DNA of 36,313 nucleotides from positions 1-36,313 of the forward strand of contig JAFWMI010000061.1 of assembly GCA_017513965.1 (NCBI GenBank). The letters are read 5' to 3'. The notes under the pieces were generated by a model that was given only the letters and a program-made list of their open reading frames with translations, searched no databases and was not told the DNA's origin. Made by a program: the position numbers and the translations under genes. This DNA is from Atopobiaceae bacterium (GTDB lineage: Bacteria; Actinomycetota; Coriobacteriia; Coriobacteriales; Atopobiaceae). Shown piece after piece: positions 20,420 to 26,442 of this stretch (the stretch's first letter is position 1; each line of letters opens with the position of its first letter).

Positions 20420-20560
20420 CTAGTCCGAGACGGTCAGACGCTTGCGACCCTTTGCGCGACGGCGTGCCAGTACCTGGCGGCCGCCCTTCGTGGCCATACG
20501 TGCGCGAAAACCGTGGGTCTTTGCGCGCTTCCTCTTGTTTGGCTGATACGTGCGTTTCAT
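20420..20560 (-). CDS. rpmH: 50S ribosomal protein L34
   Basis: This short gene of 46 codons encodes a very basic peptide that begins [19 protein letters not shown] and ends LTVSD, a full L34. GGAGGAA precedes the ATG. A near-consensus promoter lies 62 bases upstream of the start codon. It is the first gene of the leftward operon rpmH-rnpA-yidD-yidC-jag-rsmG and marks the left side of the origin region. Confidence 0.97.
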
Positions 20561-20621
20561 GGTTCCTCCTGCAGGCTATGGTCTGGGGTTGTCCCCTGAC
20601 ATTCAAAAGTCAAGCCCTCAG

Positions 20622-20650
20622 ATTGTAGTGGTAGCAAACAAGGGTGTCAA
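20622..20650 (-). promoter_or_regulatory. Promoter of the rpmH operon
   Basis: Read on the minus strand, a perfect TTGACA (complement of 20645-20650) and TACAAT (complement of 20622-20627) are separated by exactly 17 bases. This matches a vegetative sigma-70/SigA-type promoter and gives a leader of about 55 bases before rpmH. Confidence 0.88.
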
Positions 20651-20910
20651 CCTGCCATTCCATCTCCACGAGTCAGTCTCGTTGCGGAGGGCGGTTCTTA
20701 CGACGGCGGTCGCCCGCGTGTAGCAACATTTCTTTCCGTGGGTAATAACTTGCTTTCACAGTGCTAAACTTTTCAGCCGTTCTTTCACGACTATTCGCGA
20801 CTTTTCAACAAGTTTTTCTCATCTGTTGATAACTTTCATTCACATAATTTTCGACGTGAAAGTTTTCGTCACGTGTACAATGTCTGTTGAAAGCTTCTAC
20901 GGGAGGACGC
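20651..20910. other. Candidate origin region upstream of dnaA neighbour, with DnaA-box-like nonamers
   Basis: This divergent spacer between rpmH and the plus-strand run marks the switch in gene direction expected at an origin. It becomes AT-rich from about 20755. Box-like nonamers are TTTTCAACA at 20802-20810, TTATCAACA on the minus strand at 20824-20832 and CTTTCAACA on the minus strand at 20885-20893. None is the canonical TTATCCACA. The block may hold part of oriC or a DnaA-responsive promoter. Confidence 0.5.
20876..20881 (+). promoter_or_regulatory. Possible -10 element of the ATPase/winged-helix gene
   Basis: TACAAT at 20876-20881 lies 29 bases before the start codon. The -35 region is poor (TTCGAC at 20850-20855, with 20-base spacing). 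The element is flanked by two box-like nonamers (20824-20832 and 20885-20893), so binding of DnaA there could affect it. Confidence 0.4.
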
Positions 20911-21918
20911 ATGGCACAGGACTTTTACCCGTTCGTCGAGAACGATAACGCGGCAACAGGCCGCTCGGACGTCGTGCAGCATCCCGCACGCATTGCCGTC
21001 TACGACGACGCGGCAGCGGCGCCGCGCGTGGTGGTGGTCGAACCCAAGGAGGTTCGTCCGTATCTTGAAGAGATCACCCTGCAGGTAACGCAGCTCTCGC
21101 AGGCGCAGGGTGGAACCATACCCTTTATGGTAATACGCGAGATCGTGGAGAACTTCATCCACGCCTTCTTTATGGAACCCACCATCTCCATCCTCGATGG
21201 CGGAAACACCATACGTTTCTCCGACCAGGGTCCGGGCATTGCCGAAAAGGAGCGCGCCCTGCAATACGGCACGACATCCGCCACGGAGGAGATGCGTCGA
21301 TACATTCGCGGGGTTGGGTCGGGACTGCCTTACGTGCAGCAATACATGCTCGACAAAGGCGGTTCGCTGCGCATAGAAGACAACATATCGGGAGGTACAG
21401 TCGTCACGCTCTCCACCAGACCCGCGCAGGTAGAGACGCACGCGCCCGCACCAAACTGGTCACAGCCATATACGCAGCCATACCAACAGCCATACCAGCA
21501 GCAGGCCCCCTCGTGGCCACAACAGCAGCCATACCCGTCGTGGCAGCAGCCGCAACCACAGCAATGGCAGCAACCCCAGCAATATCAAGGGTGGCCTCAG
21601 CAACAGCAGGCCTGGGGGCAGCCATCCGCCCCAACGTGGCCGGCGACCCCCGTGCCGCAACAGCAGGACGCGCCAATCCTACAGGGCCCCGTTCCAGGGT
21701 GGCCCTCCATATCCCAGCGCGGCCGGATGGCGCTCGACTATCTTGCCGCCCACGACTCCGTGGGACCATCCGACCTCACACGGGTTCATGGTGGGTCGCA
21801 GCCAACCTGGTCTCGTGAGCTACAGGCGCTCGAGGAGCAGGGACTCATACGCAAGGACGGGCAAAAGAGGCGCCTCACCGGCATGGGTCAAGCGCTCCTG
21901 CGCGGCGGTGGTCAATAA
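20911..21918 (+). CDS. Bergerat-fold ATPase with Q/P/W-rich linker and winged-helix domain
   Basis: This 335-residue protein has an unusual architecture and no function I can assign. Residues about 40-170 form a GHKL/HATPase domain: N box REIVENFIHA (Asn81), G1 box SDQGPGI (Asp105) and G2 box RGVGSGL (133-139). It resembles the ATP-binding domains of sensor kinases and anti-sigma kinases, but no phosphoacceptor-His domain is seen. A low-complexity linker rich in Gln, Pro, Trp and Tyr (about 180-260) leads to a C-terminal winged-helix-like domain (about 265-335, with a PSDLTRVHGGSQPTWSRELQALEEQGLI core). The start is ATG at 20911, 4 bases after GGGAGG. It lies in the origin region directly upstream of dnaA (93-base gap), which suggests a regulator of initiation or of dnaA. 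Confidence 0.75.
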   Translation: MAQDFYPFVENDNAATGRSDVVQHPARIAVYDDAAAAPRVVVVEPKEVRPYLEEITLQVTQLSQAQGGTIPFMVIREIVENFIHAFFMEPTISILDGGNTIRFSDQGPGIAEKERALQYGTTSATEEMRRYIRGVGSGLPYVQQYMLDKGGSLRIEDNISGGTVVTLSTRPAQVETHAPAPNWSQPYTQPYQQPYQQQAPSWPQQQPYPSWQQPQPQQWQQPQQYQGWPQQQQAWGQPSAPTWPATPVPQQQDAPILQGPVPGWPSISQRGRMALDYLAAHDSVGPSDLTRVHGGSQPTWSRELQALEEQGLIRKDGQKRRLTGMGQALLRGGGQ

Positions 21919-21968
21919 CCGCATGCCAAGTTTTCGACAATTTCATTACGAGGACGCACTTTTCATCA

Positions 21969-22010: not shown

Positions 22011-23471
22011 ATGGACGGCACGAACGAGACAGACGCGGAGATTCTGTGGGGTGACGTAGTCGCGGCGCTTGAGGAGAGCGACCTTCCCGCAGCAACCATT
22101 GCCATGCTCGAGAGCTGCACGGCAAGCGAGCTCGGTGAGGACGTCCTCACGGTGCGCTGCTCCTCCAGATTCGTTCAACGCACGCTCAGCCGGTTGGGGT
22201 CCCAGCTCGACCAGGCCGCGACCGACGTCGCGTTCCAGCCCATGCACATAGAGGTCTCGTTTGAGCGCGGCGCACCACGGGAGCGTACCACCACATCCGT
22301 GGTCCCGAGGGTCCCAAGCCCCGCCCCTCAGCCGGCAGCCCCTGCCCCGCAGCCCAAACCCGAGCGCAAGAACCCGCTCGTAGAGGAGATAACCGCCGCG
22401 GGGTCCATGCTCACCTTCGACAGGTTTGTTGAGGGCCCACAAAACAAGTTCGCGTTTGACGCCGCAAAGCAAGTTGCCAACGGCAACCGTAACTACAACC
22501 CGCTGTTCATATATGGGAAGAGCGGGTTGGGCAAGACGCACCTCCTGCGGGCAATACAAAACTACATAGCCCAAAACGACCCGGAGCGCACCTGCGTCTA
22601 CCGCGTGGCGACCGACTTCATCGACGATTACTCTCGCGCCATGAAGAACGCGCGCACGGGCGCGGCGGAGGCGCTCGCAGAGAACTATCACAGCATAGAC
22701 GTGCTCATAATCGACGACATCCAGCTCATGAGCACCGCCGGAGGCACGATCGGCTTCTTCTACGACACGTTCAACTATCTTGTTGGACACGGCAAGCAAA
22801 TCGTGCTTGCCGCCGACCGCACCCCCTCTGAGCTGGGCATGGGTCAGTCGCGCTTTGACGAGAGGGTAACGAGTCGCCTCGATTCCGGCATGACGGTGTC
22901 CATTCAGGTGCCCGACTACGAGCTCAAGCTCCAACTCATTGACGCATTCTATGAACGCATGCGCGAGGATGCCAGAGCCCAGCACGTACCAGGCATGGAC
23001 GCAACCATAAGCGAGGACCTGCGCAGGGCCATGGCCGAACGCGCGGGCACTAACATTCGCGTGATCGAGGGCTTCGTGCAGTCGTGCCTCATGCTGGCGT
23101 TCCAGCGCGAGGCGCTCGGAGCGCACCTCACCGCAGACGACATTGCGAGCGTCGCGGAACAAAAATGGCCGAGCGGCCAGCGGCGCGTTACCGTCGAGCA
23201 GATTCAGGAGGCGGTTGAGCGGAGCTATGACATTGACCATGTGGGGCTCGTGGGTGGCAAGCGCAACAAGGAGCTCATGGAGCCGCGCCATGTGGCCATC
23301 TGGCTCACACGCGAACTCACCGACAACACCCTGGCAGACATCGGCAAGTATTTTGGCGGGCGCACGCACGCAACGGTAAAGCACAGCATCGGCGTGGTTG
23401 AGGAAGGCATGCGCGAGGACCGCGTTCTGCAGGACCGCATCGCCCGCATCCGAGACGCCATAATCGAGTAG
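22011..23471 (+). CDS. dnaA: Chromosomal replication initiator DnaA
   Basis: This 486-residue AAA+ protein binds DnaA boxes and opens the origin. Domain I is about 1-85 and is followed by a Pro/Ala linker (domain II, to about 125). Domain III contains IYGKSGLGKTHLL (Walker A, about 165-177) and LIIDDIQLM (Walker B). Domain IV carries the helix-turn-helix and the signature GKYFGGRTHATVKHSI. The usual RDHTTV/RDHSTV core is here RTHATV (451-456), so Thr and Ala replace the Asp and Thr/Ser that contact bases in E. coli DnaA. Box specificity may thus differ. The start is ATG at 22011, preceded by a GGGAAG ribosome site. Confidence 0.97.
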   Translation: MDGTNETDAEILWGDVVAALEESDLPAATIAMLESCTASELGEDVLTVRCSSRFVQRTLSRLGSQLDQAATDVAFQPMHIEVSFERGAPRERTTTSVVPRVPSPAPQPAAPAPQPKPERKNPLVEEITAAGSMLTFDRFVEGPQNKFAFDAAKQVANGNRNYNPLFIYGKSGLGKTHLLRAIQNYIAQNDPERTCVYRVATDFIDDYSRAMKNARTGAAEALAENYHSIDVLIIDDIQLMSTAGGTIGFFYDTFNYLVGHGKQIVLAADRTPSELGMGQSRFDERVTSRLDSGMTVSIQVPDYELKLQLIDAFYERMREDARAQHVPGMDATISEDLRRAMAERAGTNIRVIEGFVQSCLMLAFQREALGAHLTADDIASVAEQKWPSGQRRVTVEQIQEAVERSYDIDHVGLVGGKRNKELMEPRHVAIWLTRELTDNTLADIGKYFGGRTHATVKHSIGVVEEGMREDRVLQDRIARIRDAIIE

Positions 23472-23710
23472 GCGACGATGTTTACAATTTTGTCGAACAC
23501 GCGGTGCCTCGCGACCACAAACCCACGTCTTGCGTTGAAAACGATTTTCGAAACTTCGTTGAAAGACGAAAGCGTTGAATCGCACCCGCATGCAACACGG
23601 CCGCAATTGCTGCGATTACCTGCGAAATGGCGTACTTGTCAACATTTGAACACGACCTACTACTGCTATTGAATCTATATTCAAACATTAAGAACAATAG
23701 GAGGAAAGCA
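23472..23710. other. dnaA-dnaN spacer: candidate oriC with variant DnaA boxes
   Basis: This 239-base non-coding spacer holds minus-strand nonamers TTTTCAACG (23533-23541), CTTTCAACG (23557-23565) and GATTCAACG (23573-23581), and a plus-strand TTGTCAACA (23636-23644), all sharing TTCAAC or TCAAC. An AT-rich stretch follows at about 23660-23705 and could be the unwinding element. dnaA-dnaN spacers are frequent origin sites in Gram-positive bacteria. The dnaN ribosome site AGGAGG lies at its end. Confidence 0.6.
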
Positions 23711-24836: not shown

Positions 24837-25925
24837 ATGGGTCTGGCCGTCGAGCGCGTGACGCTTCGCGACTGGCGCAACTTCGAACATCTTACGTGCG
24901 AGCTCTCGGGCGGACTCACGGTGCTCGTGGGGCCCAATGCCACGGGAAAGACCAATACCATCGAGGCGTTGCAGCTCCTCACCGCCGGGGAGTCGTTTAG
25001 GAGACCTCGCACGGCAGACCTCGTGCGCGAGGGCGCGGACGTGGGACGCATCGACATGAGGCTCACGGGCGATGGGCGCGTGGTGGACGTTGCCTGCATC
25101 GCGGGCGAGGGCAAGCGAAGGTTCGTGCGCAACGACAAGCCATGCCGTCCGTCGGACCTCTCCGCCACGCTCATGTCGGTTCTGTTCTGCCCCGACGACC
25201 TTTCGTTCGTGAAGAGCAGCGCGCGCTATCGTCGCGACGCCATCGACTCGTTTGGTGCGCAGGCGAACGCGGGCTATCGAAAGGTCGCCCACGCATATGC
25301 CCGGGCGCTCGAGCAGAGAAATCGCCTGCTCAAGGATCCGCAGATAGACCTGGGCATGCTCGCCGCCTGGGATGCTTCCGTGGCGTTGGGCGGCGCCACG
25401 CTCCTGCATGCCCGCCTGGGTCTTTTTGCCCGCCTTCGCCGACACGTGCGGACGGTGTACGGCACCGTGGGCGGTGGCGAGGAGCTCGACTGTTCCTACG
25501 TGTGCTCGCTGGGAGGCGGCGTGGAGGACCTCGAGCGCGACGAGCTGCGCGACCTGTTTCTCGACCGTCTTGAGGAGCTTCGAGAGGACGAGCTCCGCCG
25601 TGGCGTTACGCTGGTTGGCCCACAACGAGACGACATCGCCTTCTCCATTTCTGGCAGAGACGCGCGAACGTTCGGAAGCCAGGGCCAGCAGCGCTCGGTG
25701 GTGCTCGCCTGGAAGATGGCGGAGGTCGCCATCGCCAAAGAGGTGCTGGGAGAGCAGCCCCTGCTGTTGCTCGACGATGTGATGAGCGAGCTCGACGGCG
25801 CGCGCCGTGCGGCGATGACGCGCTTTGTGGAGGGTGGCATACAAACGGTGGTGACCACCGCGCACCTCTCGTACTTCCCTCCCGAGCTGCTCGAACGCGC
25901 GGAGGTGATTCGCTTTGGCGCGTGA
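24837..25925 (+). CDS. recF: DNA replication and repair protein RecF
   Basis: This 362-residue SMC-like ATPase helps load RecA at gaps and stalled forks. It has Walker A GPNATGKTNT (32-41), an ABC signature region GSQGQQRSVVLAWKMAE near residue 280 and Walker B LLLLDDVMSELD near 310. The ATG follows GGGGAG. The next gene begins inside its 3' end, so recF and the DciA gene are translationally linked. Confidence 0.95.
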   Translation: MGLAVERVTLRDWRNFEHLTCELSGGLTVLVGPNATGKTNTIEALQLLTAGESFRRPRTADLVREGADVGRIDMRLTGDGRVVDVACIAGEGKRRFVRNDKPCRPSDLSATLMSVLFCPDDLSFVKSSARYRRDAIDSFGAQANAGYRKVAHAYARALEQRNRLLKDPQIDLGMLAAWDASVALGGATLLHARLGLFARLRRHVRTVYGTVGGGEELDCSYVCSLGGGVEDLERDELRDLFLDRLEELREDELRRGVTLVGPQRDDIAFSISGRDARTFGSQGQQRSVVLAWKMAEVAIAKEVLGEQPLLLLDDVMSELDGARRAAMTRFVEGGIQTVVTTAHLSYFPPELLERAEVIRFGA

Positions 25926-26442
25926 TCGTGGCGGAGACCCCCGAACTGCGGGGGACGTGGTCGCGGACCTCTTGGGTGGTCCGCTGGGAAACGGTCTAAC
26001 CAAGAGCCAGCGCGTTGCGCGCGCCTGGTATGCCGTAAACGGGGACCGCGAGCGCGCCCACACCACGGGCGTGTGGCTCAAGGAACCAACACGCCCCGGG
26101 GCCGACCCCACGCTCGTGGTGCGCGTTGACTCCGGATTGCTCGCCTCCGAGCTCGCCACCAACAAGGACCTCTACCTCTCGCGCTTGGCGTTTCGTGGCG
26201 TGCGCGTCTCCAACGTTCGGTTTACGGTTGGCGGGGACCCGCTCCCCCACATTCGCAAGGCCAAGGGCGAGGCGAAGGGCGGCGAGGGCGCCTTGCCCAT
26301 GCGTGCCGACCTTACCCACGAGGAGCGTGCCCGCGTGGACCGCGCGACGTCCGGTTTGCCGGAGGGACTCAGACAGAGCGTTTCTCGCGCGATGTGCGCG
26401 TCTTTGGCGCGTGAAAAGTGCAGAAGTACACAAGACGGCTAA
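25915..26442 (+). CDS. dciA: DUF721/DciA-family replicative helicase operator
   Basis: This 175-residue protein has a DUF721 domain, visible in DVVADLLGGPLGNGLTKSQ, the VARAWYAVNGDRERAHTTGVW segment and the LASELATNKDLYLSRL helix. DciA proteins load or activate DnaB helicase in bacteria that lack DnaC/DnaI. The start is TTG at 25915, overlapping the recF stop by 11 bases; a GTG at codon 14 is possible. The C-terminal third (Arg/Lys-rich) is less conserved. The recF-DUF721-gyrB order is typical of actinobacteria. Confidence 0.85.
   Translation: MARDRGGDPRTAGDVVADLLGGPLGNGLTKSQRVARAWYAVNGDRERAHTTGVWLKEPTRPGADPTLVVRVDSGLLASELATNKDLYLSRLAFRGVRVSNVRFTVGGDPLPHIRKAKGEAKGGEGALPMRADLTHEERARVDRATSGLPEGLRQSVSRAMCASLAREKCRSTQDG

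Follow-up and report, generated by a model that had tools for sequence, protein, structure and literature searches.

The described protein which comes closest to the one considered here is DIP2311 of Corynebacterium diphtheriae (PDB 3lmm), which we take to be a COG2865-type protein composed of AlbA_2, GHKL (HATPase_c_4) and winged-helix domains, the winged helices of this family presumably being C-terminal. Further points of comparison are offered by the histidine kinases (KinB, PhoQ, CpxA, ThkA), the GHL ATPases (MutL, GyrB, Hsp90), SpoIIAB and the winged helices of the MarR, IclR, TrmB and Csa3 types. In GyrB, MutL, Hsp90 and SpoIIAB the catalytic glutamate is located four residues before the asparagine of the N box (N-4), a position at which histidine kinases usually carry a residue other than glutamate. 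Among described proteins, AlbA_2 and HATPase_c_4 are also combined in TrlG of Photorhabdus (PMC7554251).

The gene reported here, termed X, was found in a stretch of 36,313 nucleotides (the window) from an Atopobiaceae bacterium, and family, class and phylum in the following refer to the Atopobiaceae, the Coriobacteriia and the Actinomycetota. Translation of X begins at an ATG preceded by GGGAGG, the resulting N-terminus MAQDFYPFV is common to its relatives, and Pfam searches together with structure prediction revealed the order GHKL ATPase, linker and C-terminal winged helix, for which the features are as follows.

20911..21918, plus strand: gene X (GHKL ATPase, linker, winged helix), an open reading frame of 335 amino acids with a GGGAGG ribosome-binding site
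20968..21417, plus strand: GHKL ATPase domain including an N-terminal beta-hairpin, residues 20-169 (PF02518, AF2, fold match 3lmm_B)
21139..21162, plus strand: N box E77-x3-N81-x2-H84, including E80, with E77 at the general-base position (E77 in 85/87 homologues, N81 and H84 in 87/87)
21223..21237, plus strand: G1 box DQGPG, residues 105-109 (D105, G107 and G109 in 87/87)
21310..21324, plus strand: G2 box GVGSG, residues 134-138 (G134, G136 and G138 in 87/87)
21430..21702, plus strand: low-complexity Q/P/W/Y linker, residues 174-264 (91 residues, 69% QPWY)
21709..21903, plus strand: C-terminal winged helix-turn-helix, residues 267-331 (AF2, Foldseek, HTH profile models)

HATPase_c (PF02518) matches X residues 73-169 with an E-value of 6.6e-9, exceeding the gathering score, and was matched in 45 of 45 aligned homologues. 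Conservation was derived from 87 homologues, 47 from the class and 40 from other classes, in which the three boxes are essentially invariant; a GHKL domain with intact N, G1 and G2 boxes, as claimed earlier by a sequence-only reading of this DNA, was hence verified, and the histidine phosphoacceptor said to be missing is indeed absent, as neither HisKA nor any other phosphoacceptor domain was found. Residues 20-175 folded alone by AF2 yielded a pLDDT of 81.8, the same region having a pLDDT of about 30 in full-length AF2 models based on a shallow alignment of five sequences. Fold comparison with VIA-align identified 3lmm_B as top match of the ATPase domain (Z 12.9, 146 of 156 residues aligned), with residues 234-413 of 3lmm being the part which superposes on the model. 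HATPase_c_4 (PF13749) was not matched by the X sequence, its fold being nearest to 3lmm by a clear margin and well above all histidine kinases, whose catalytic domains reached Z 8-9. The stretch preceding the N box is short and consists of a beta-hairpin and one helix.

With the histidine kinases X shares the GHKL fold and the G1 and G2 boxes, but it lacks a HisKA/DHp domain, carries a DNA-binding domain after its ATPase and, unlike the kinases, possesses glutamate at N-4. A role of X as normal sensor kinase was rejected, since the phosphoacceptor domain is absent, and the position of E77 together with this absence speaks for an ATPase over a histidine kinase; binding of ATP by X, and likewise its hydrolysis, are predicted. 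An ELVEN-like N box with glutamate at N-4 (E77, 85 of 87) is also found in the GHL ATPases, and MutL profiles match X residues 71-117/127, whereas the G2 region of X is kinase-like. Pfam gave no match to a transducer domain after the ATPase, where a variable linker, at its shortest 12 residues, leads to the winged helix. SpoIIAB resembles X in its E-x3-N box and in fold (Z 8.2), and weak SpoIIAB profile matches were obtained, so that X could be seen as a serine/threonine kinase or a partner-switching factor of the SpoIIAB/RsbW kind which acquired a DNA-binding tail. This is considered very improbable, as the fold of X is nearer to 3lmm (Z 12.9), no STAS or sigma-factor partner gene was seen beside X at the loci examined and SpoIIAB and RsbW are not known to carry a winged helix.

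The sequence-only reading had described the linker as 80 residues of Gln, Pro, Trp and Tyr, of which the presence and the composition (69% Q/P/W/Y) stand and the length has to be corrected to 91. Beyond the window's family and its near relatives neither length nor composition is conserved, the median length falling to 39 residues in the remaining families of the class and to 23 outside the class, with a minimum of 12. The Gln/Pro/Trp linker is a decoration specific to certain lineages; as functional core of X it was rejected because it is unconserved, and the proposal that its aromatic and Gln residues drive self-association is unsupported as a general function, given this shrinkage to medians of 39 and 23.

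For the C-terminus (residues 263-332) the full-length AF2 models of five sequences gave pLDDT values mostly of 84-91, and Foldseek aligned the region with MarR-type domains at a probability of 1.0 and an rmsd of 1.3-1.6 A over about 67 residues, which confirms the winged helix on which the sequence-only reading had made its proposal depend. Pfam returned weak, generic winged-helix models only at residues 267-331; most of the 45 aligned homologues match an HTH model (IclR/MarR/TrmB/HVO_A0261). L307 is invariant or nearly so and R302, L304, R320 and G326 are nearly invariant among the 87 homologues, while K319 hardly varies, if at all, within the class. In the recognition helix (residues 297-304) the window's family and some near relatives have PTWSREL, most other lineages STAYRDL. 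Comparison of these sequences suggests that the DNA site of X may have changed along with the recognition helix; that X binds DNA is itself a prediction, as is the location of its site.

X thus shares the C-terminal fold and HTH profile of the MarR/IclR/TrmB/Csa3-type proteins but lacks their effector domains and has a GHKL ATPase as partner domain. As to the COG2865-type proteins, the C-terminal winged helix (AF2, Foldseek, HTH models) is a likeness, whereas X is about half as long as DIP2311 and is tied to dnaA. AlbA_2 (PF04326) was not matched in X up to an E-value of 10 and is not among the 25 commonest families of the 45 homologues. As the pairing of GHKL and winged helix has a precedent in 3lmm, of the COG2865 type, X does not represent a novel sort of protein; lacking AlbA_2, a phosphoacceptor and a transducer, it is, however, filed under no such family. 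No Pfam or NCBIfam model names X as a whole protein and no description was found in the open-access literature searched, within which a dnaA-tied, stand-alone GHKL-winged-helix protein occurring across most deep lineages of the phylum is undescribed. A mobile or phage origin was rejected, as no relative was found in viral contigs and plasmids gave only two matches, both weak histidine kinases.

Of 398 genomes searched in the class, 352 gave a match to X at E <= 0.001, some few matches being weak and at the level of histidine kinases. Neighbourhoods were read in 50 genomes of the class picked for breadth, of which 41 contain a strong match, in all 41 directly upstream of dnaA; two of these pairs span the opening point of a complete circular chromosome. 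When 396 genomes of the phylum were searched with a profile, about 21 families beyond the class were found to have strong X matches, and among 40 neighbourhoods from other classes dnaA lies directly downstream in 34 of 34 testable cases, the remaining six ending at a contig edge just past X. A scattering of homologues away from dnaA, which had been named beforehand as counting against a role in initiation, was therefore not found, neither in the class (41/41) nor outside (34/34). The neighbours of X are rpmH, rnpA, yidD, yidC, jag, rsmG and parA as well as dnaA, dnaN, recF and gyrB. At the rearranged locus L068 (6568-9219) gyrB and dnaN locate to one side and rpmH-rnpA-yidD-yidC beyond dnaA, with X still directly upstream of dnaA.

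The rpmH-dnaA-dnaN-recF-gyrB island is conserved in bacteria, and jag, yidC and rnpA are neighbours in it without being initiation regulators. Adjacency of X and dnaA is consequently weaker evidence for function than usual, a caution which is met only in part by L068, by the operon-like spacing detailed below and by the complete linkage in X-bearing genomes. X might accordingly be an ATP-responsive transcription factor whose regulon lies elsewhere (nucleotide or energy metabolism, stress), with its place beside dnaA being inherited ancestral gene order. The general conservation of the island, the likeness of the winged helix to MarR/IclR/TrmB-type regulators and the dispensability of X in some lineages speak for this possibility, which is nonetheless judged unlikely, because no testable genome breaks the linkage, be it in the two dozen or more families within the class or in the many outside it, because rearrangement leaves the pair intact and because X and dnaA are spaced like operon members. 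That the pair was kept across many deep actinobacterial lineages rather argues that X is probably a regulator of dnaA or of initiation timing.

As for genomes without X, most of those among the 50 yielded no dnaA either, which suggests assembly gaps. Two loci, L077 and L078, contain rpmH and dnaA with no X in between and no strong match elsewhere, and are hence taken as real absences; DnaA boxes are still found in these X-negative gaps from which X was lost, and both may be of use as natural knock-outs. In X-negative families none of 18 sampled rpmH-dnaA loci contains X. Together with L077 and L078 these loci imply that initiation can do without X. When mapped on the DnaA tree, presence and absence of X require 10 changes as compared to at least 16 in 300 shuffles, and distances of X and DnaA correlate at 0.48 (permuted maximum 0.26). 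The two trees share 35 of 72 splits, and the X tree did not recover the class as monophyletic. From the presence pattern and the distance correlation, X is probably ancestral to the phylum and vertically inherited with several losses, and Streptomyces- and Mycobacterium-like families may be among the losers.

The features flanking X place it within the replication origin.

20420..20560, minus strand: rpmH, divergent and upstream of X, with a promoter TTGACA-N17-TACAAT at 20650-20622
20765..20770, plus strand: candidate -10 element TAAACT (TAGAAT in relatives) of a putative X-dnaA promoter, located ahead of the array of boxes, proposed from a block conserved in 14 relatives
20802..20810, plus strand: DnaA-box-like TTTTCAACA
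20824..20871, no strand assigned: two extended DnaA-box-like sites arranged as an inverted repeat, TGTTGATAACTTTC...GAAAGTTTTCGTCA, with boxes at 20824-20832 (minus) and 20863-20871 (plus)
21931..21968, plus strand: two DnaA-box-like sites, TTTTCGACA and TTTTCATCA, in the X-dnaA gap
22011..23471, plus strand: dnaA (PF00308 E 3.9e-45, PF08299 E 8.2e-21)
23636..23668, plus strand: probable unwinding signal of DnaA-box-like TTGTCAACA, a spacer and a putative trio-like repeat CTACTACTGCTA, the latter read by eye

The DnaA-box-like sequence TTNTCNNCA occurs three times within the 350 bp at 20561-20910, where about 0.15 copies are expected from the window-wide shuffle mean, so that the box-like nonamers noted earlier before X are real, and twice more inside the X-dnaA gap. 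Between rpmH and X, 124 DnaA boxes were counted at 38 loci of the family (8.7 in shuffles) and 165 at 34 other loci of the class (11.3 in shuffles), which is 14-15 times above shuffles. In an alignment of 14 relatives about 150 bp are conserved as a block, in which the candidate -10 is followed downstream by boxes, a layout which would resemble that of autoregulated dnaA leaders; a consensus promoter scan did not call a promoter for X. In the dnaA-dnaN gap, CTACTACTGCTA following the box at 23636 looks like a DnaA-trio unwinding signal. With boxes between rpmH and X and the putative unwinding region between dnaA and dnaN, X would reside between the halves of a bipartite origin. Farther downstream a gene for DciA, the ancestral helicase operator, was identified between recF and gyrB (25915-26442, PF05258 E 6.2e-6), overlapping the end of recF.

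The X-dnaA gap amounts to 92 bp in the window and is often 20 bp or less outside its family, which argues for probable co-transcription of both genes as operon partners. Such an operon predicts stable, stoichiometric co-expression of X and dnaA, as would also suit an adaptor comparable to Hda, SirA, YabA or DnaD, in which X contacts DnaA or the helicase-loading machinery, the winged helix serves protein binding or non-specific DNA binding and ATP gates the interaction. Taxon-specific DnaA regulators are common, which counts for an adaptor of this kind; we nevertheless regard it as quite unlikely, as the window encodes DciA, which is the likely helicase operator, in a separate gene.

DnaA itself differs in the window's family, where its domain IV contains GGR[TS]HATVKHS (GGRTHATVKHS in the window, GGRSHTTVMHS in L044) in place of the GGRDHTTVMHA found mostly in other families of the class, and where the boxes read TTTTC[AT][AT]CA instead of TTTTCCACA/TTATCCACA. 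The change begins at the equivalent of E. coli position 433, residues 432-435 of E. coli DnaA being DNA-contacting (PMC5043019). A co-evolved shift of DnaA-box specificity in this family is likely.

The inverted repeat at 20824-20871 measures 30 bp from core start to core start and is conserved in the family, whose form of it is TGNNGAAAACTTTC ... GAAAGTTTTCNNCA, from which the window's copy differs by one change; it is confined to this family. Repeats whose GAAAACTTTC/GAAAGTTTTC cores are spaced by exactly 30 bp were observed in the window and in L004, L010, L011, L021-L023, L030 and L033-L035. The palindrome GAAARYTTTC was counted 45 times at 29 of the 38 family loci in stretches running partly into X, the clean box counts being the 124 and 165 given above, and the spacing is 30 bp wherever a facing-arm pair occurs. 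As it overlaps DnaA boxes, it may be purely a DnaA site. GAAARYTTTC was rejected as universal X-binding motif, being family-specific and overlapping with DnaA boxes, and stays a candidate only; no motif able to serve as X site is common to all X-bearing lineages. DnaA, X or both may recognise the inverted repeat.

An ATP-state-dependent regulator of initiation, as had been guessed at the outset, is a reading which these sequence comparisons motivate well. The evidence tips slightly in favour of X being a DNA-binding regulator which is switched by ATP, acts on dnaA expression, orisome assembly or both, and would read the nucleotide state. The suggested mechanism assumes that X and dnaA are transcribed as one unit, headed by X, inside a bipartite origin, which would consist of the box array from rpmH to X and the unwinding region from dnaA to dnaN. 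Here, binding of ATP would close the GHKL domain, probably as a dimer, dimerisation itself being presumed, and the closed domain would position the winged helices at the C-terminus so that they bind amid the DnaA boxes of the rpmH-X region. X would be released by hydrolysis via Glu77, or by loss of the nucleotide, and through this cycle the supply of initiator or the activity of the origin would be linked to the nucleotide state, whereby X would be expected to have an effect on initiation. A more far-reaching proposal is put forward tentatively, as a serious possibility rather than an expectation: that X, already present in the ancestor of the phylum and lost towards Streptomyces- and Mycobacterium-like lineages, is a dedicated ATP-switched initiation regulator integrated in oriC and in the dnaA operon, and hence an undescribed kind of control based on a GHKL ATPase, possibly binding the inverted repeat of extended boxes with or against DnaA.

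The model actinobacteria, Streptomyces and Mycobacterium, appear to lack X, and the known control of actinobacterial initiation would therefore leave out the deep-branching classes, to which abundant gut bacteria belong. For these classes, X, being conserved, embedded in the origin and apparently part of the initiator's operon, is the obvious first candidate for the sensing of nucleotide or energy state before replication, a question which can thereby be reduced to one protein and a DNA fragment of 350 bp.
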